A DNA stretch of 57,574 nucleotides from Thraustochytrium sp. TN22 (Eukaryota > Sar > Bigyra > Thraustochytrida > Thraustochytriidae): the NCBI GenBank assembly GCA_013306675.1, contig JABLUY010000234.1, positions 1 to 57,574 of the forward strand. Direction: 5' to 3'. The position numbers were made by a program, and so were the translations under genes. This document shows positions 3,658 through 56,145 of the stretch, one piece after another. A model generated the notes under the pieces. That model ran no database searches and was not told the origin of the DNA. It was given only the letters and a program-made list of their open reading frames with translations. Position 1 is the first letter of the stretch. Every line of letters starts with the position of its first letter.

Positions 3658-3747
3658 GTACCACGAATGGTCTTGACAAAGTTGACACCTTCATCAGCAT
3701 CAGTACCACGAATGGTCTTGACAAAGTTGACACCTTCATCAGCATCA
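3658..3747. repeat. Perfect 45-bp tandem duplication
   Basis: Two head-to-tail identical 45-bp units, 3658-3702 and 3703-3747, in DNA less GC-rich than its surroundings. The unit is 15 codons long. On the minus strand one frame reads D-A-D-E-G-V-N-F-V-K-T-I-R-G-T twice, preceded by TTTCAG, which resembles a splice acceptor. This frame has no ATG and stops soon after the repeat. It may be an exon relic just downstream of the second Nudix gene, or simple slippage. Confidence 0.85.
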
Positions 3748-27555: not shown

Positions 27556-27687
27556 CGATTCGCCTCACGATTCGCCTCACGATTCGCCTCACGATTCGCC
27601 TCACGATTCGCCTCACGATTCGCTCCACGATTCGCCTCACGATTCGCCTCACGATTCGCCTCACGATTCGCCTCACGGTTCGCCTCA
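27556..27687. repeat. 12-bp minisatellite, 11 copies of CGATTCGCCTCA
   Basis: Eleven head-to-tail 12-base units with two slightly changed copies (one CGCTCCA variant, and CGGTT at the end). Because 12 is a multiple of three, all frames stay open across it (repeating I-R-L-T on plus, R-E-A-N on minus), but no gene context supports translation. It lies about 95 bases from the 3' end of the YIPF3-like gene. Confidence 0.9.
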
Positions 27688-27782
27688 CGGCGAGTCGAGG
27701 TGCGGGTCCTTTTTCTTTTTCCATGAGAAAGAAGAAGTGCTTTGAGACGCAAATGCATGGCAGGTCAACATTTTTTTCATCA

Positions 27783-47625: not shown

Positions 47626-49196
47626 GCCGGCGCCTGCGCTTGCGCTGGCGCACGAGGATTGATATGATACCGGGGTCTGCCGCGCGCTCCGCTGTGGCCG
47701 CCTGCGCCGGGCTTGGCCGCGCGCGCCGCCGGGAGGCCGAGGCGGTCTCCGCCCTCGCCTCACCTCGCGCCGCCTCGCGCTCGCGCTTGCACTCGCTCGC
47801 GCGCGCGAACCGGCCCGCCGCTTCGCGCTCTGCTGCGCAGCTGCCGCGCCGAGCGCGCCACAGCTTCGCAGCCAAGGCCGCCAAGACTCGAAGCGCCCTG
47901 GTTGGCCGGTGGCACGGCACTGGCAGGCAAGCTGCAGAGAGGCAGGCCGCAAGGAGAACTAGCCTACGAAGTTGGTTGACAGTGAGGCACGCACGCCACG
48001 CTCCTAGCTAGCTAGCTAGGGACGCACGCACGCAATGGCCACGCACGCACGCACGCACGCATGCATGCATGCATGGACCGTGAAGCGAAGCAAAGCGAGC
48101 CGGAGCAAAGCGAGCAAGCTGTGGCGCGCTGCAGCCTGCATCAGGGTCGACGCGCGATGCTACTTGGGCGACGTGCGCGGCGGTTCGAGCAAAGCATGCA
48201 AACCCATCGGAAGCAGATCTGAGCGGAGATCATCAGAACCCGACTCCGAGCGCCTCCGAGCGCAGCTGTTGGCCAACAAACAGCTGGCAACCTGGCACCC
48301 GCGGGCCGCTGCCGTCACGCCACTTGCTTGGCGCACTTTTGTCTCTGAACGCTCGGGTAGAAAGTCACCGCCGGCGACCGTGGTATGGGTGCTGTCACGA
48401 TGCACGGGCAGCCTGAGCTGGCGAACAGCAGCGCTCGGTAGACGCTCGTTTGAAAACGTGAGGCGAGGCCATCCGTCCACGACTCCACGACTCCACTGGC
48501 ACGCACGCTTGCACAGATGCTGGGTGCTGCACAGCAAGATCTGACTTGGACAATGGAGCGACCCGCTGCGTCCGGGTCCAAAACAATACAAATGTCCAAA
48601 AAGAAAAAAACATTCAACACCGGGGCTTCGCATGCAGTCCCCTATCATACTACTAGCCCGGCCCTACGTGACTTTACTTCTCAGTGCGAATGAGATGAGG
48701 TGTTGCCCACGTGGTATGATCGAATGTGATTGTTAAGGGAGGATTGCGTTTATATTGACTCGCATCGACGAGCCAAGCTTTGTCCTGTACACAGACGTAA
48801 GTGAACCGGCCGCCCCACAAGCTTCATTGATGTTAGCACGCCCCACGAGCTGCAGCGTTCTGCAGTGCATCTTGACGGAGCGATTGCCACTCGGTGATGA
48901 CGTTTTTCAATGGACAGCGGCGACTCGGAGCTCACGTCCGAGACACGCGCGGGAGAACCTCTTTTACGGACCAGAGCCAGTGGCCGCGAGGCATCGCAAT
49001 GACATTGACTGACCATGAAGCACCAACTCACGCAGCTACGCATACTTCGGGTCGCCTTGGCTTCGGTCACGGTGCCCGCCGCACCCCTCATGGACGCTCC
49101 GCCGCACCTCTCACAGACGCTGACACGCGCAGTCGCACACGCGAGCGAGAACAGAAGCTGCGCACGATTTGACTTTGTGAGGCACTGATATATATA
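47626..49196. other. 1.6-kb intergenic region with CTAG, ACGC and ATGC tandem tracts
   Basis: 48005-48020 is (CTAG)n, followed at 48021-48073 by (ACGC)n and (ATGC)n, a run of alternating purine-pyrimidine sequence that could adopt Z-like DNA. The region 48560-48760 is less GC-rich. Open frames are short and show no motifs. I see no gene, although a short spliced gene cannot be excluded. Confidence 0.4.
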
Positions 49197-51730
49197 TCAC
49201 GGGTCGGGCGCCTCGGAGCCTTCATGCATCTTAAGAACGTGTACCATGCCAGATTGATCACCGGCAATGATCGTTGTGCCCTGGCGGAGGCAACAGGCCG
49301 GGTACATGGCGTGATCCGTCGTAAAGCCCACTCGGCCAATGCCTGCCTGCAGCCTGACTCCGCTCGCTACCTCGACAGTGCGAGCGCGGCGCCCAGAGTC
49401 TAAACGCGCCTCCGCGGCTTGCCCGTCCACTCGCGCATAGGTTTTCAGGTCCTAGCACAAGGCATTGCCAGCGCTGTCCTTGCTGGTGATGACGCCACCG
49501 TCAATTGCCAACCTGGTGACGGAGCTCGTGTGCCCTTCGAGCACCTGCAGCTGGTCGCCGCTCCGCGCGTCCCACACACGCACCGTGTGGTCTGCAGACG
49601 CAGATACAATTCGGTCGCCGTCCAGAGCCACGCTGGTGATAAAGGTCGTATTCCCCTCGAGCACGTGCAGCTGCTCACCGGTGTGAACATCCCACACGCG
49701 GACCGTTTTGTCGCTGGACCCAGACACAATCCGATTTCCGTCCAAAGCCACGCTGTAGACATCGGACGTGTGCCCTTGGAGCACGAAGACTTCGTCGCCA
49801 GTCCGAGCATCCCATACGCGCACCGTCGTATCCCATGACCCAGACACGATCCGATCACCGTCCAAGGCCACGCTGTTGACCCTCGACCTGTGCCCCTCCA
49901 GCACGTGCAACTGGTCGCCAGTCTGAGCGTCCCATACGCGCACCGTGTTGTCGCTTGACCCAGACACAGCCCAGTTGCCAAGGCCACACAGTTGACCTGG
50001 TGCGTGTGTTTCGCGAGCAGGTTCCGCTGGTCCCCGGCGTGGGCATCCCATACGCGCACTGTCTTGTCGAAAGACCCAGACACGATCCTGACGCCGTCAA
50101 AAGCCATGCTGTAGACGTTATCGGTGTGGCCCTCAAGCACGCGGAGCAGATCGCCGGTGTTGACGTCCCATACGCGTACCGTGTCATCAAAAGACCCAGA
50201 TACGATCCAGTCGCCATGCAAAGCCACGCCGAGCACGGCGGAGGTGTGTCCCTCGAGCACCGCTAGCTGCTCACCGGTGTGAGCGTCCCACACGCCAACC
50301 GTCTTGTCCTCAGACCCGGACGCGACCCTGCCGCCATTCAAAGCCACGCTAAAGACAACATCAGTGTGCCCCTCGAGCACGTGCAGCAGATCGCCGGTGA
50401 GAACGTCCCACACGCGCACCGTGTTGTCTTCAGACCCAGATACGATCCGCTCGCCGTCCAGAGCCACACTAAAGACAGCCGACGTGTGTCCCTCGAGCGC
50501 GTGCAGCTTGTCGCCGGTGCGAGCGTCCCACACGCCCACCGTTTCGTCAGAGGCAGACACGATTCGGTCGCCGTCCAAAGCCACAGCGAAAACGGCACAC
50601 GTGTGGCCGTCGAGCAAGAACAGGTGCTCGCCGGTGCGAGCGTCCCACACGCGCACAGTTTGGTCGTGCGACCCCGATACGAGTCTGTCTCCGTCCAGAG
50701 CCACGCTGTAGACGGCGGCCGTGTGGCCCTCGAGCACGCGCAGCTGCTCGCCGGTGTGAGCGTCCCACACACGCACCGTGTTGTCTAAAGATCCAGACAC
50801 GATCCGGTTGCCGCGCAAGGCCACGCCATGAACGGCGCCTTCGTGCCCCCTGAGCACGCGCAGGAGCGCATCGCGCGGCGGCGCGAGAGACGGCTTGGCA
50901 GGGCAGAGCCACGGGATTTGCGGCGGTCGGAGCGTGCGTCGCAGAGGGTGGTCGGGGTCGACGATGCGCGCGAGGATCTGGCCGGCGAGCTGGTCCGGGT
51001 CGGTGGTGACGGCGAGCATGGCCTTGCTCAGGAGTCGCGGCGTGTCGCTCTCGTCGTCAAGCTTAACCCGCAGCGCGTCGCGGAGAACGCCGCCAACAAA
51101 GGCATGGCGACCTGCGGGCGACGACCTGGCCGAGAGAAGTCTGTGCACCCAGTCAAAGTTGTCGAGCAGCGAGCAGGCCTCCTCGAGCTCGCCGGACTTG
51201 GAGAGGTGGAAAATGACGTGCTTGAGCGCGAATGTCGTGCGGTCGTCCACGAGGACCTTGGCAAGCGTGGCGTGACCTCGACCGCACTCGACCAGCAGCC
51301 GGCTTCCCGCGCGGGCCCGGTCCGTGAGGAATATGGAGATGGACTTGTGAACGAAGCGCACGGTGGTGGCGTCCACGTCGAGGAGCTGCGAGGCTCCAGC
51401 GAACAGAGTTTTCGCGTCAAGTGGGTCGAGTTTGATGACCTTGGCCGCGACGCTGATGGGCAGGGGGGCGCGCGCGGCGCACAGGGCGCCAAACAGGTTG
51501 GCGTAGACCTCCTTGTCGTCCCGCAGCCGCCCATCGAGCAGCCTCCCAAAGTACTCCACGTACATGGCGTCAAGGCCGGAGGGAAGGAGGCCGAGCAGCT
51601 CGGCGGCCGAAAGCTCGCTCACGCCATCCTCCTTGAGCTTGTTGTACAGCATGGCAGCGTACAGGAAGAGCCCCTGCGCGTGCTCCTCCAGCTTTGGCAG
51701 AGCCATGTCGAGCTCTGCGTCGCTAGCCAT
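49197..51730 (-). pseudogene. Decayed NACHT-type WD40-repeat gene
   Basis: Read on the minus strand, the frame opens at ATG 51730 (M-A-S-D-A-E-L-D-M). About 290 residues follow that look like the helical part after the NACHT domain in NWD proteins (A-Q-G-L-F-L-Y-A-A). From about 50863 there is an array of 40-residue WD repeats (L-x-V-L-E-G-H-T, V-A-L-D-G-D-R-I-V-S-G-S, T-V-R-V-W-D). Seven repeats lie in this frame. In repeat 8, near 49975-49982, the frame shifts; four bases are missing compared with sister repeats. Repeats 8-11 and a partial 12th continue in the new frame to a TAG at 49452-49454, which stands where the W of a W-D pair is expected. The same frame then runs on to 49197 with a last blade-like segment. 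No P-loop NTPase part is present. No GT-AG intron explains the shift, so it is most likely a recent pseudogene or a sequencing error. Confidence 0.8.
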
Positions 51731-51740
51731 GAAGTTCCGG

Positions 51741-52133
51741 AGCTTGGCGCGGAGACAGCGCACCTAACCGGCCGCCGTCTGTCGCGCTGACGTGGATGCC
51801 GAGTACCGTGTTGCACGTAAGCCGAGCTTCTGTTGCTGCGCAAGTTGGCGTGCGCGCGGTCTGGCAGCCAAAGCCTCGCCTCGCAGCGCGCTGAGTGCCG
51901 TCACGGCCGCAGCGGCACAGCGACGCAAGTCGGCGCCCGCAGCGCTGTGCGTGGTCGCTCGCGCCCGACGCCGCAAGCCGCAAGCCGCCGCGTTTCGGCT
52001 CTGCCACCGCCAAGTCGAACCTGAGCTCATGCTCCAGCGGGGTTCGCGCCTGCCTCCATCTCGCGAGGCGCTGGTTAGCAGAGCAGAGTCAGCCGGCCAT
52101 GGCAGCACGCGAGCGCGGCGCGCGCGGTGCGGT
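51741..52133. repeat. Segment A: copy of the 5' segment also found at 55740-56145
   Basis: About 390 bases similar over the whole length to 55740-56145, including an identical run of 43 bases (51918-51960 equals 55931-55973). On the minus strand it lies immediately upstream of the WD40 relic. At 51764-51766 it has TAG on the minus strand where copy B reads TGG, so the frame G-x-V-R-C-L-R is interrupted only here. It may hold promoter and the beginning of the gene. Confidence 0.85.
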
Positions 52134-52709: not shown

Positions 52710-55394
52710 TTATGCCCCGGGGCGCCACCACTTGGGCACAACTTCCTCCTCCCTGAGTTCGTCGGGGCGCCACCACCTGAGTTCGTCGGGGCGCCACCAC
52801 TCGGGCACATCTTTCTCCTCCTCGAGTTCGACGGGGCACCACCAATTGGACACAACTCTCTCGTCCACGAGTTCGATTTCGAAGGGGCGCCACCCTTTGG
52901 GCCCAACTTCCTCGTCCTCGATTTCGTCGTCGTCCTCAAGTTCGTCGTCGTCCTCGAGTTCGTCGTCGTCCTCGACTTCTTCGTCCTCGAATTCGTCTTC
53001 GTACTTGATGTACGACGCGAGCAGATCACCTTGAGCGTGGAGTGCCTTGCAGCGCGCACGGAGTACCGCGATCCGCGCGGTGTTGGCAGCACTCATGCTC
53101 TGCTTCGTAGGCGTGGTGGCAGCCTCGGCGGTCGCCGCAGGCTGAGCAGGAGGCGACAGGCTGAGCCCGCTGGGGCTGCTCGTGGGCAAGCCTAGTTGGC
53201 GCGAAAGCTGGATGCAGCAGCGGAGCGCCTGCGCTTGGCGTGCGAGGTCCTTGATGCAGTCGCGCTGCGAGGCGAGCGTCTTGTTGCGCTGCAGCTCCCT
53301 GCGCATTGCAGCCGTGAGCTCGGCAGAAGGGTCGCTGGGATTGTGTAGTGTTCACATCATTTGTCAGTCGCTCGTTCCGTCTTTGTCTCTTCGGAGAACT
53401 CACGTGACCTCGAGATACTTCAGCTTGCACTTGGTGCTTCCCAACGCTCGCGCGAGGGCTCCAGCGCCCGCGGAGCCGATGCTGTTGCCGTAAAGGCTGA
53501 GTTTTGGCAAGGCGCGTCGTCAGCTTGACAAGATGCTCCTGGCCAGGTGAGGCCAGGCCTGCCTGCACGTGTCGTCCAAAAGCCCGGTGGCTGACTGCTA
53601 CAAAGCAGGCCTGCCGTGCCTGACGAGCTGGCCGCGCCCATGCGCCATCATCGCATGAGATGGACCGCTGGCTCGTGCTTTCAGAGGCTGCCGGACGGGA
53701 AATGGAAACGACATACTCACTCCAGAATCGTCAGCCTGCACTGGCCGCTCTCCAGCGCTCGCGCCAGCGCTTCAGCGCCCGCGGAGCCGATGCTGTTGCC
53801 GTAAAGGCTGCGTTTTGGCAAGGCGCGTCGTCAGCTTGACATGATCCTCCAGGCAAGGCCAGGCAAGGCCAGGCCTGCCTGCACGTGTCGTCCAAGAGCC
53901 CGGTGGCTGGCTGCTACGAACCAGGCCTGCCGTGCCTGACGAGGTGGCCGCGCCCATTCGTAATCATCACATGAAATGGACCACTGGCCCGTGCTCTCAG
54001 AGGCTGCCGGGCGGGTGAAGGAAACGAGAAGAACTCACAAAAGCCTCGTCAGCCTGCACTGGCCGCTCTCCAGCGCTCGCGCCAGCGCTTCAGCGCCCGC
54101 GGAGCCGATGCTGTTGCCGTAAAGGCTGCGTTTTGGCAAGGCGCGTCGTCAGCTTGACATGATCCTCCAGGCAAGGCCAGGCAAGGCCAGGCCTGCCTGC
54201 ACGTGTCGTCCAAGAGCCCGGTGGCTGGCTGCTACGAACAGGCCTGCTGTGCCTGACGAGCTGGCCGCGCCCACTCGTAATCATCACATGAAATGGACCA
54301 CTGGCCCGTGCTCTCAGAGGCTGCCGGGCGGGTGAAGGAAACGAGGAGAACTCACAAAAGCCTCGTCAGCCTGCACTGGCCGCTCTCCAGCGCTCGCGCC
54401 AGCGCTTCAGCGCCCGCGGAGCCGATCTCGTTGCCGTAAAGGCTGCGTTTTGGCAAGGCGCGTCGTCAGCTTGACATGATCCTCCAGGCAAGGCCAGGCA
54501 AGGCCAGGCCTGCCTGCACGTGTCGTCCAAGAGCCCGGTGGCTGGCTGCTACGAACAGGCCTGCTGTGCCTGACGAGCTGGCCGCGCCCACTCGTAATCA
54601 TCACATGAAATGGACCACTGGCCCGTGCTCTCAGAGGCTGCCGGGCGGGTGAAGGAAACGAGGAGAACTCACAAAAGCCTCGTCAGCCTGCACTGGCCGC
54701 TCTCCAGCGCTCGCGCCAGCGCTTCAGCGCCCGCGGAGCCGATCTCGTTGCCGTAAAGGCTGCGTTTTGGCAAGGCGCGTCGTCAGCTTGACATGATCCT
54801 CCAGGCAAGGCCAGGCAAGGCCAGGCCTGCCTGCACGTGTCGTCCAAGAGCCCGGTGGCTGGCTGCTACGAACAGGCCTGCTGTGCCTGGCGAGCTGGCC
54901 GCGCCCACTCGTAATCATCACATGAAATGGACCACTGGCCCGTGCTCTCAGAGGCTGCCGGGCGGGTGAAGGAAACGAGGAGAACTCACTAAAGCCTCGT
55001 CAGCGTGCACTGGCCGCTCTCCAGCGCTCGCGCCAGCGCTTCAGCGCCCGCGGAGCCGATCTCGTTGCCGTAAAGGCTGCGTTTTGGCAAGGCGCGTCGT
55101 CAGCTTGACATGATCCTCCAGGCCAGGCCAGGCCAGGCCAGGCCTGCCTGCACGTGTCGTCCAAGAGCCCGGTGGCTGGCTGCTACGAAGCAGGCCTGCT
55201 GTGCTTGACGAGCTGGCCGCGCCCACTCGTAATCATCACATGAAATGGACCACTGGCCCGTGCTCTCAGAGGCTGCCGGGCGGGTGAAGGAAACGAGGAG
55301 AACTCACAAAAGCCTCGTCAGCGTGCACTGGCCGCTCTCCAGCGCTCGCGCCAGCGCTTCAGCGCCCGCGTCGCCGATGTTGTTGCGGTCAAGG
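52710..55394 (-). CDS. Multi-exon LRR protein built of tandem one-LRR exons (5' end unresolved)
   Basis: Minus-strand exons, in order of transcription: 55394-55308, 55076-54990, 54759-54673, 54442-54356, 54125-54039, 53807-53721 (each 87 nt), 53496-53404 (93 nt) and a last exon 53334-52710 ending in TAA. Each 87-nt exon encodes one 29-residue ribonuclease-inhibitor-type LRR, for example L-Y-G-N-E-I-G-S-A-G-A-E-A-L-A-R-A-L-E-S. Every LRR exon starts with one base and ends with two bases of a split codon, so all are phase-compatible. Donors are GTGAGT, acceptors CAG, with a CTGAC branch-like site about 25 nt before. The last exon continues the frame (D-P-S-A-E-L-T-A-A-M-R-R-E-L-Q-R-N-K) as a cap, then a helical region, an acidic run and a repeated W-W-R-P-D-E-L tail. 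Likely a ligand-binding or NLR-type LRR protein. The first exon(s) are not certain; 55551-55808 is a candidate. Confidence 0.85.
52720..52890. repeat. Minisatellite coding for W-W-R-P-D-E-L repeats
   Basis: Four imperfect copies of a GGGGCGCCACCA...GAGTTCG unit of variable length (27-60 bases) within the last exon of the LRR gene. Read in the gene's frame they give W-W-R-P followed by acidic residues. Indels between copies keep the frame. Confidence 0.7.
53404..55394. repeat. 317-bp tandem array, seven LRR exon-intron modules
   Basis: Acceptor-side exon borders lie at 55394, 55076, 54759, 54442, 54125, 53807 and 53496, so the period is 317-318 bases, shortened to 311 at the end. Both exons and introns are repeated; modules at 54125-54759 are nearly identical. 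Homology to the intron continues upstream to about 55540. Array ends are more diverged than the centre, as expected from unequal crossing-over. Confidence 0.95.
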
Positions 55395-55550
55395 CTGCGT
55401 TTTGGCAAGGCGCGTCGTCAGCTTGGCATGATCCTCCAGGCCAGGCCAGGCCTGCCTGCACGTGTCGTCCAAGAGCCCGGTGGCTGGCTGCTGCGAAGCA
55501 GTCCTACCGTGCCTGACGAGCTGCTTGGGCCCATGCCCGAGCTTGGATAC

Positions 55551-55808
55551 TTCCAGGGCGTGCCAGGCTACTGGGTCGCCCTGCATCAACAGCAGGACTA
55601 TCACGTACATGAGTCCTGTCGCGCCGTTTTCGATCAAGCGAATGGCGCCCTTCACGATGGCGCGCACCCTATCGTCCATGATGAAGGTGAGGATTCCGTA
55701 CACAAGGTCCGCGTCGAGAGCAGAGAGGCAGCAGCGGAGGTCGCCACGGAGGCAGCGCACCCAACCGGCCGGGCCGCCGTCTGTCGCGTCGACGCGGCCG
55801 CTGAGCAC
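55551..55808 (-). CDS. Possible upstream exon of the LRR gene
   Basis: An open minus-strand frame with coding look: V-R-C-L-R-G-D-L-R, then L-V-Y-G-I-L-T-F-I-M-D-D-R-V and a hydrophobic stretch G-L-M-Y-V-I-V-L-L-L-M-Q-G-D. It ends before intron-like repeat sequence begins at about 55540; a GTATCC donor at 55550 is possible. That donor gives phase 0, whereas the first LRR exon needs two bases carried over, so the junction is not solved. The first part matches the region before the WD40 relic. Confidence 0.35.
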
Positions 55809-56145
55809 CGTTGCACGCCGGCCGAGCGTCTGTTGATGCGCAAGTTGACGCGCGCGCGGTCTGGCAGCCTCTTAGCCGCGCCTCGCAGCGCGCTGACTGT
55901 GCGTGCCGTCGCGGGCCGGCCGCAGCGGCGCAGCGACGCAAGTCGGCGCCCGCAGCGCTGTGCGTGGTCGCTCACGCCCGACGCCGCGCGTCGCAAGCCG
56001 CCGCGTTTCGGCTCTGCCACCACCAAGTCGAACTTGAGCGCCTGCTCGAGCAGAGTTCGGGCCTGCCTCCATCTCGCGGGGCGCTGCTAGCAGAACAGAG
56101 TCAGCCTGCCACGGCAGCAAGCGCGTGCGGCGCGCGCGGCGCGGC
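55740..56145. repeat. Segment B: copy of the 5' segment found at 51741-52133
   Basis: Homologous to segment A with small indels. It lies directly upstream (minus strand) of the LRR gene as A lies upstream of the WD40 relic. Thus two genes with different bodies share the same 5' region. Confidence 0.85.

Follow-up and report, generated by a model that had tools for sequence, protein, structure and literature searches.

Single-repeat exons with phase-2 introns in leucine-rich repeat arrays of Thraustochytrium sp. TN22 and the diversity of their predicted ligand-facing codons

The window analysed here is the whole stretch of 57,574 nucleotides (nt) of contig JABLUY010000234.1 of Thraustochytrium sp. 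TN22. Its minus strand carries, at 53404-55394, a tandem array of seven modules, each with one exon that codes for one leucine-rich repeat (LRR). Judged by predicted exon structure, the array belongs to a large family of one-LRR-per-exon arrays in this genome, usually with repeats of 29 residues and with phase-2 introns. The diversity of the family is concentrated in codons predicted to lie on the concave face of the LRR sheet, a point that was absent from an earlier, sequence-only reading of the same DNA. The explanation that we favour, with a probability of about 0.8, is a germline process in which recombination between alike introns brings about concerted evolution while the predicted ligand face is under diversifying selection.

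The modules were read directly in the window sequence, and the array was found on the minus strand where the earlier reading had put it. That reading had described seven modules of 317 bases, each holding one 87-nt exon framed by CAG and GTGAGT. The number of modules and the framing were borne out, with a CAG acceptor and a GTGAGT donor at all seven LRR exons, but the spacing of exactly 317 held for only three of the six intervals (318, 317, 317, 317, 318 and 311 along the array), and the rule of one 87-nt exon per LRR held for six modules, the last exon being 93 nt long. The Tandem Repeats Finder (TRF) program reported a period of 317 with 6.7 copies and 95% matches. In each LRR exon, the opening base completes a codon begun in the preceding exon, and the final two bases open another codon. 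All LRR exons are thus bounded by phase-2 introns, and the reading frame survives the gain or loss of a whole module, in agreement with the uniform codon split claimed earlier. A TGA codon follows immediately after each of the seven exons when the frame is continued into the intron. The near-identity of the introns and the greater likeness of the central modules also stood: modules 3 and 4 are identical in both exon and intron, and the introns of modules 2-5 differ by at most five mismatches and one gap per 230 bases. The elements of the array are the following:

55308-55394, minus strand: LRR exon 1, 87 nt, LDRNNIGDAGAEALARALESGQCTLTRL
54990-55076, minus strand: LRR exon 2, 87 nt
54673-54759, minus strand: LRR exon 3, 87 nt
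54356-54442, minus strand: LRR exon 4, 87 nt, the same in sequence as exon 3
54039-54125, minus strand: LRR exon 5, 87 nt, the same as exon 4 except for the LRR position 10 codon (GAG/AGC)
53721-53807, minus strand: LRR exon 6, 87 nt
53404-53496, minus strand: LRR exon 7, 93 nt, the C-terminal LRR
53497-55307, minus strand: the stretch between the LRR exons with six near-identical phase-2 introns (231, 230, 230, 230, 231 and 224 nt)

The genome (37.9 Mb in 453 contigs) was searched for relatives of the array. Used as a DNA query, the array gave 108 matches on many contigs; the 20 regions taken from the genome were chosen for their likeness to it and are not an independent sample. A scan by motif only found AG at the expected place in 107 of 109 matches at 20 loci. 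For the comparison of exons, AG/GT splice sites were required and eleven exons of one locus (C11a) were added by hand, which resulted in a set of 122 exons from 21 loci including the window (the other loci are named here by their contig handles). The exon length was 87 nt in 111 cases, 84 nt in seven, 93 nt in three and 90 nt in one, and 105 exons had the GTGAGT donor. No stop codon was seen in any of the 122 exons, a count to be read with the fact that the motif used for finding them was coding and covers part of each exon. A strict pattern of the exon start matched the genome 129 times and its reversed version not once, so the array is not a chance product. Intron length was constant within 8 nt in six of the 16 arrays with at least two listed introns, and each of these arrays has a length of its own: 228 nt in C11a (9 of 10 introns), 189 nt in C398 (8 of 10) and 173 nt in C407 (all five), the remaining ones being C321, C1 and the window. 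A second type of array (C398, C407, C239 and C160) has a different framework, EGAGSLAGALGSGQCALTSL.

For the analysis of diversity, locus C359 was left out as a near copy of C11b, the exons of lengths other than 87 nt (11 of 122) were set aside in the codon counts, and the module list excluded introns of at least 330 nt, of at most 40 nt or with masked bases. Among the 86 distinct 87-nt exons, the amino-acid entropy was 3.56, 3.35 and 3.06 bits at LRR positions 7, 8 and 10 and 2.43 bits at position 3, and it was only 0-0.3 bits at 11 of the 28 codons. The location of the face was predicted from the LRR class. Ten arrays with alignable introns were then compared with each other, leaving out the C398 type and divergent arrays. 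Between modules of different arrays, the introns differed on average by 0.132, framework codons by 0.066 at positions 1 and 2 and by 0.079 at position 3, and the four face codons with the greatest variability, picked from the entropy table, by 0.487. For the face defined from the LRR structure (positions 2, 3, 7, 8 and 10), the ratio of nonsynonymous to synonymous differences (pN/pS), obtained by a counting method and not by PAML, was 2.14, compared with 0.67 for the framework. Diversity above 0.5 was seen in 10 of the 87 exon columns versus 4 of the 229 intron columns. The five residues of the face occurred in 79 distinct combinations in 104 exons. For comparison with the targets of diversity-generating retroelements, where variation is confined to template adenines, the base composition was noted: each of the four bases is frequent at LRR positions 7 and 8, and adenine predominates at position 10. 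The diversity of residues thus appears to be at least as important as the number of repeats.

Closely related modules were compared using a half-intron design, in which the pairs were chosen by one half of the intron, the other half was measured, and the split-codon bases were counted with the face. For the pairs within 3% (9 and 8 pairs), the intron differed by 0.019 and 0.016; the corresponding values were 0.098 and 0.096 for the face and 0.005 and 0.011 for the third positions of framework codons. The face/intron ratio was 5.2 and 6.0 at this closest cut and 3.2-4.4 at wider cuts. The ratios obtained initially, 32 and 12.8, were dropped, since they had been inflated by pairing on small intron distance; in that pairing, framework third positions differed by 0.058 versus 0.013 in the introns. 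Binomial p-values from the same comparison were set aside as well, since they assume independent sites. The third base of the position 8 codon, which is flanked by hypervariable bases, had a diversity of 0.11 (the intron mean being 0.131), and the third base of the position 3 codon had 0.05. As the third base of position 8 is quiet, the excess there lies in the bases that change the amino acid.

The analysis of module exchange covered 57 modules from 14 arrays, 54 of which belonged to multi-module arrays. For 32 of these 54, the nearest intron lay within the same array, compared with a mean of 5.2 and a maximum of 14 in 1000 shuffles of the labels over all 57; for the other 22 it lay in another array. 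The introns of C379 module 1 and C321 module 2 have no mismatches and two gaps over 228 bases; for C398 module 1 and C407 module 2, the introns are 1.2% apart. The repeats thus show concerted evolution both within and between loci. The 5' flanks of the window array and C379 are 97.8% identical (1815 of 1855 aligned bases), and the last 55 bases of the window are found in C379 too. Beside these flanks, the window has seven modules and C379 has six. Window introns 1-5 differ by 0-1.7% from each other and by at least 3.9% from those of C379, and C379 modules 1-2 are nearest to C321. Among the matches listed, bases 4300-9999 of C379 had no other partner that was both above 87% identical and longer than 84 bases. 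We read the difference in module number, together with the kinship of the introns, as probable turnover after the flanks split, and the recent turnover of modules assumed in the sequence-only reading is supported in this way, with exchange occurring both within and between loci.

The likeness of introns and frameworks suggests unequal crossing-over and gene conversion between modules. By these processes, whole modules would be added, removed and swapped within an array and between loci with the reading frame intact, and the introns and frameworks would be homogenised. Meanwhile, diversifying selection would act on a few codons for the concave side of the LRR sheet, which is predicted to face the ligand. 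At strand position 5, the codon is split by the intron, and the face of each strand would be coded half by one exon (positions 2, 3 and 5) and half by the next one (positions 7, 8 and 10). Since the intron lies inside that codon, an exchange of modules would re-pair half-faces, a step that we infer from the anatomy. In this way, a set of varied recognition surfaces would be carried in the germline, joined to ROC-COR(-TIR) parts at roughly every second locus among those read; ligand binding and a role in recognition or immunity would be their presumed use.

A Roc or COR-A match was found within 6 kb downstream of the array, on the same strand, at 10 of the 21 loci (nine by script and C77 by inspection). 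In all five of the downstream frames scanned for them, Roc, COR-A and TIR_2 exceeded the Pfam cut-off, the COR-A match of C381 barely so (35.4 versus 35.3). A sixth downstream frame, that of C398, showed a protein-kinase match under the Pfam cut-off. Over the whole genome there were 46 COR-A matches, 42 of which were over the cut-off.

The gene predicted around the window array has nine exons on the minus strand, which form one open frame of 1311 nt and 436 amino acids from the ATG at 55679 to the stop at 52710. All eight introns of the model are GT-AG and in phase 2. Apart from the LRR exons and the introns between them, it consists of the following parts:

55609-55679, minus strand: exon 1 with the start codon and the LRR N-cap, MDDRVRAIVKGAIRLIENGATGL plus 2 nt, GTACGT donor, phase 2
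55395-55608, minus strand: intron 1, 214 nt, its 3' part homologous to the array introns
53335-53403, minus strand: last intron, 69 nt, phase 2
52710-53334, minus strand: last exon with the LRR C-cap, a coiled/acidic tail and the stop

A phase-0 donor for exon 1 at TAC/GTGATA (the slash marks the cut) was rejected because LRR exon 1 would then contain a stop. A fitting donor, GTACGT in phase 2, lies four bases upstream, and all six loci with an N-cap have a phase-2 donor there; outside the window, the N-cap with a phase-2 GTACGT or GTATGT donor recurs at five loci (C379, C86a, C38, C11b and C398). The LRRs of the window protein are of the ribonuclease-inhibitor type (Pfam LRR_6, E 2.8e-23). 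Their best match in the PDB was ribonuclease inhibitor 1dfj (E 2.3e-46), NLRP proteins were matched as well, and the repeat fits the 28-29-residue pattern LxxLxLxxNxIGxxG...LxxAL of this type. The Pfam search of the window protein, with the 24-residue start omitted, gave only LRR families over the cut-off: no ROC, COR or TIR match was obtained, nor one to NACHT or WD40. The array is probably the sensor part of an LRR-only member gene of the larger family, with predicted splicing and expression. The region 52752-53002 in the tail of this gene holds short tandem repeats (18, 24, 45 and 51 nt) that code for acidic repeats and for repeats of the WWRPDEL type.

Other origins of such arrays were weighed against concerted evolution with selection on the face. 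Plain tandem duplication, in which a coding minisatellite grows and shrinks by unequal crossing-over, modules differ by drift and there is no selection for diversity, would account for the blocks of modules with identical exons and introns (C11a modules 3-5 and 7-9, C398 modules 4-7). Under this explanation, however, the face should not exceed the introns and the framework third positions to the extent described above, nor should pN/pS separate the face from the framework, and the unequal share of highly variable columns in exons and introns and the many face combinations argue in the same direction. Plain minisatellite drift was rejected on account of the excess at face codons, and we regard this explanation as very unlikely. 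A functional RNA as the cause of the intron likeness is also unsupported, the sole match over the Rfam gathering cut-off in the window being a 5S rRNA. Targeted mutagenesis, either by a template-directed mutator or by localised hypermutation at exon ends with selection as a secondary force, is suggested by multi-base changes in face codons amid near-identical modules. Examples are the GAG/AGC difference between window exons 4 and 5 and the pair C379 module 1 and C321 module 2, where nine of the ten exon differences are in the face while the intron is free of mismatches; high variability was also seen at base 84, a synonymous site adjoining the split codon. The third bases at positions 8 and 3 are nevertheless as quiet as the introns or quieter, which points to selection on the amino acid, and at positions 7 and 8 none of the four bases is rare. 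Localised hypermutation was rejected as the main cause on the grounds of these third bases, and this origin seems to us the most remote of those considered.

Two further explanations were considered. The modules may serve as a menu for each transcript or cell through combinatorial alternative splicing or somatic rearrangement, which is compatible with the germline process that we favour. The exons are symmetrical and interchangeable, and the tandem LRR exons of brown-algal ROCO genes are reported to be alternatively spliced, but somatic rearrangement of such loci is unreported in brown algae according to the same source (extracts of PMC11378527); we hold such use to be rather unlikely. It is also unlikely that the window gene is a pseudogene or a product of assembly, i.e., a dead or decaying array. 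The ROC-COR-TIR part is missing from this gene, the end of the contig is near, and the adjoining WD40 frame is interrupted. On the other hand, the 436-codon model is open, with eight phase-2 GT-AG introns, stop-free exons and both an N-cap and a C-cap, the identical tandem copies were kept separate in the assembly, and the other modules have private differences.

Several observations weigh against concerted evolution with selection on the predicted face. Face position 2 had an entropy of only 1.17 bits, and two non-face codons were higher (2.10 and 2.04 bits). The pN/pS of 0.67 in the framework indicates only mild constraint. Base 84 of the exon is a synonymous site, the last base of the leucine codon that precedes the split codon; in the ten arrays its diversity reached 0.56, as high as that of the face codons, compared with 0-0.16 in the remaining leucine codons. 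This goes beyond amino-acid selection alone, and block exchange of exon ends may be its source. In some close pairs (C398 modules 2 and 4, C11a modules 3 and 6), the differences are mainly in the framework. Intron lengths were spread over 20-249 nt in 10 of the 16 arrays, which means that homogenisation does not extend to all of them. The closest relative of window intron 6, at 8%, is a C379 intron. As the 226 bases past the 3' end of the array are only 90.3% identical between the window and C379, the latter may be a recent duplicate rather than an allele of the window. The near-identical pair C11b and C359 (98.1% over 7.6 kb) had seven exons found in each. No Roc or COR match was found just downstream at 11 of the 21 loci, three of which stop at a contig end. 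Conversely, a strict LRR-exon start was present within 6 kb upstream at just 17 of the 37 COR loci checked; these were 37 of the 42 over-cut-off COR loci, located on the contigs covered by the exon-start pattern (its first places, up to C398). The window gene, which has no ROC, COR or TIR, could be a decoy, a reservoir of modules or a decaying copy.

The principle is already known from brown-algal LRR-ROCO genes and fungal HNWD genes. What differs here is the LRR class, the exon length, the position of the intron that splits the beta-strand, the lineage and the link to ROC-COR-TIR. LRR-exon shuffling in thraustochytrids was not found reported in the searches made of the open-licence literature. 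The likeness to other LRR receptor diversification systems asserted in the sequence-only reading holds for brown-algal LRR-ROCO genes, where a phase-2 LRR exon per repeat likewise stands in tandem before ROC-COR (extracts of PMC11378527; Zambounis et al. 2012 as cited there). According to these extracts, the brown-algal genes also share exon shuffling, positive selection on the concave face (at four sites) and LRR-only relatives in the genome, and they use alternative splicing (PMC11378527). They differ in having 72-nt exons, 23-residue motifs and the strand motif within the exon, whereas here the exons are mostly 87 nt long, the repeats are of the 29-residue ribonuclease-inhibitor type and the intron cuts the strand (PMC11378527, extracts). 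Furthermore, the genes studied here have a C-terminal TIR in all five frames tested and a thraustochytrid host, and the window gene is without ROC-COR whereas relatives in its genome have it. Several further SAR species searched in that work, Schizochytrium aggregatum among them, are reported to have at most four ROCO copies apiece (PMC11378527).

In Podospora, extracts of the HNWD literature describe WD40 repeats that evolve in concert and have four codons under diversifying selection (PMC1805685, PMC12222747, PMC4986451). The likeness of het-d and het-e to the arrays described here extends to near-identical repeats, concerted both within and between loci, probably to variation in repeat number, and, as predicted here, to the location of the four diversifying codons of each repeat on the interaction face (PMC1805685, PMC12222747, extracts). 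Their repeats are WD40 in NLR proteins, their role in allorecognition is known, and repeat-induced point mutation (RIP) has been proposed for them (extracts of PMC1805685, PMC12222747). By contrast, each repeat here is an LRR with an exon of its own, and the introns offer a neutral yardstick. The PRDM9 zinc-finger array lies in one exon. It differs further in that its zinc fingers bind DNA and in its meiotic role. It is similar as a coding minisatellite with selection at the recognition positions of otherwise similar repeats (PMC3890296, extracts). The vertebrate ribonuclease inhibitor and NLR proteins have LRR domains of the same class as the window protein, as the PDB search indicated. Their LRR exons follow the repeat unit, and their repeats are old and stable and are not known to have homogenised introns.

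The near-identical introns provide a built-in neutral yardstick for the diversification of the face, only a few bases away from it. Brown algae and thraustochytrids are distant stramenopile lineages. If the explanation that we favour is true, LRR-exon shuffling occurs in both of them, with phase-2 introns in each case but different LRR classes, and convergence is suggested. A large, fast-evolving family of ROC-COR receptors in a unicellular protist would be a further consequence, as the 42 COR-A matches over the cut-off suggest, and a repertoire role in virus defence, self-recognition or food sensing becomes testable in protists. A more far-reaching and speculative idea, to which we give little credence, is a repertoire-type system in which more than 100 exchangeable LRR exons feed receptors, including a large part of about forty ROC-COR genes. 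Introns that split the strand would then yield new faces, half by half, with each swap, possibly also through alternative splicing or during clonal growth, and diversity would arise faster than by point mutation.

The LRR gene is adjoined by a gene with WD40 repeats (49445-51763, minus strand) with a period of 120 nt and about 11 copies. Its frame is interrupted, and from 50096 downwards the repeats continue in a second frame. On C243 and C283, WD40-like matches recur every 120 nt, and homogenisation may therefore extend to arrays of this kind. A segment of about 400 bases from the 5' end of this gene (51738-52132) is 85% like a segment upstream of the LRR gene (about 55736-56145), as established via C379; the two gene types look as if they share one 5' segment. 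The 5S rRNA gene detected with Rfam lies at 48609-48727 on the minus strand, and a 98%-identical counterpart of 129 bases is found on C160, less than 2 kb from another LRR array.

As for the host, no chlorophyll-binding family was found in the genome, which suggests the absence of photosynthesis. On the mitochondrial contig (C318, 22,353 bases), TTA acts as a stop in most of the frames looked at. The check covered 13 of the 16 frames of at least 150 codons, with gene names assigned by eye. TTA was absent from three frames (cox1, cox2 and putative atp6), confined to the last 16 codons in seven (cob, nad4, nad1, cox3, putative nad6 and two unnamed ones) and present only in the last 23 codons of putative nad5. 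Putative nad11, of 776 codons, had it at codons 48, 708, 768 and 769. Another unnamed frame does not fit TTA as a stop, since eight TTA codons are spread along it. The use of TTA as a stop corresponds to NCBI code 23, the Thraustochytrium mitochondrial code, and makes a thraustochytrid the most likely host. Elsewhere in the window, there is a perfect 45-nt duplication at 3658-3747 and a 12-nt repeat in 11 copies at 27556-27689.

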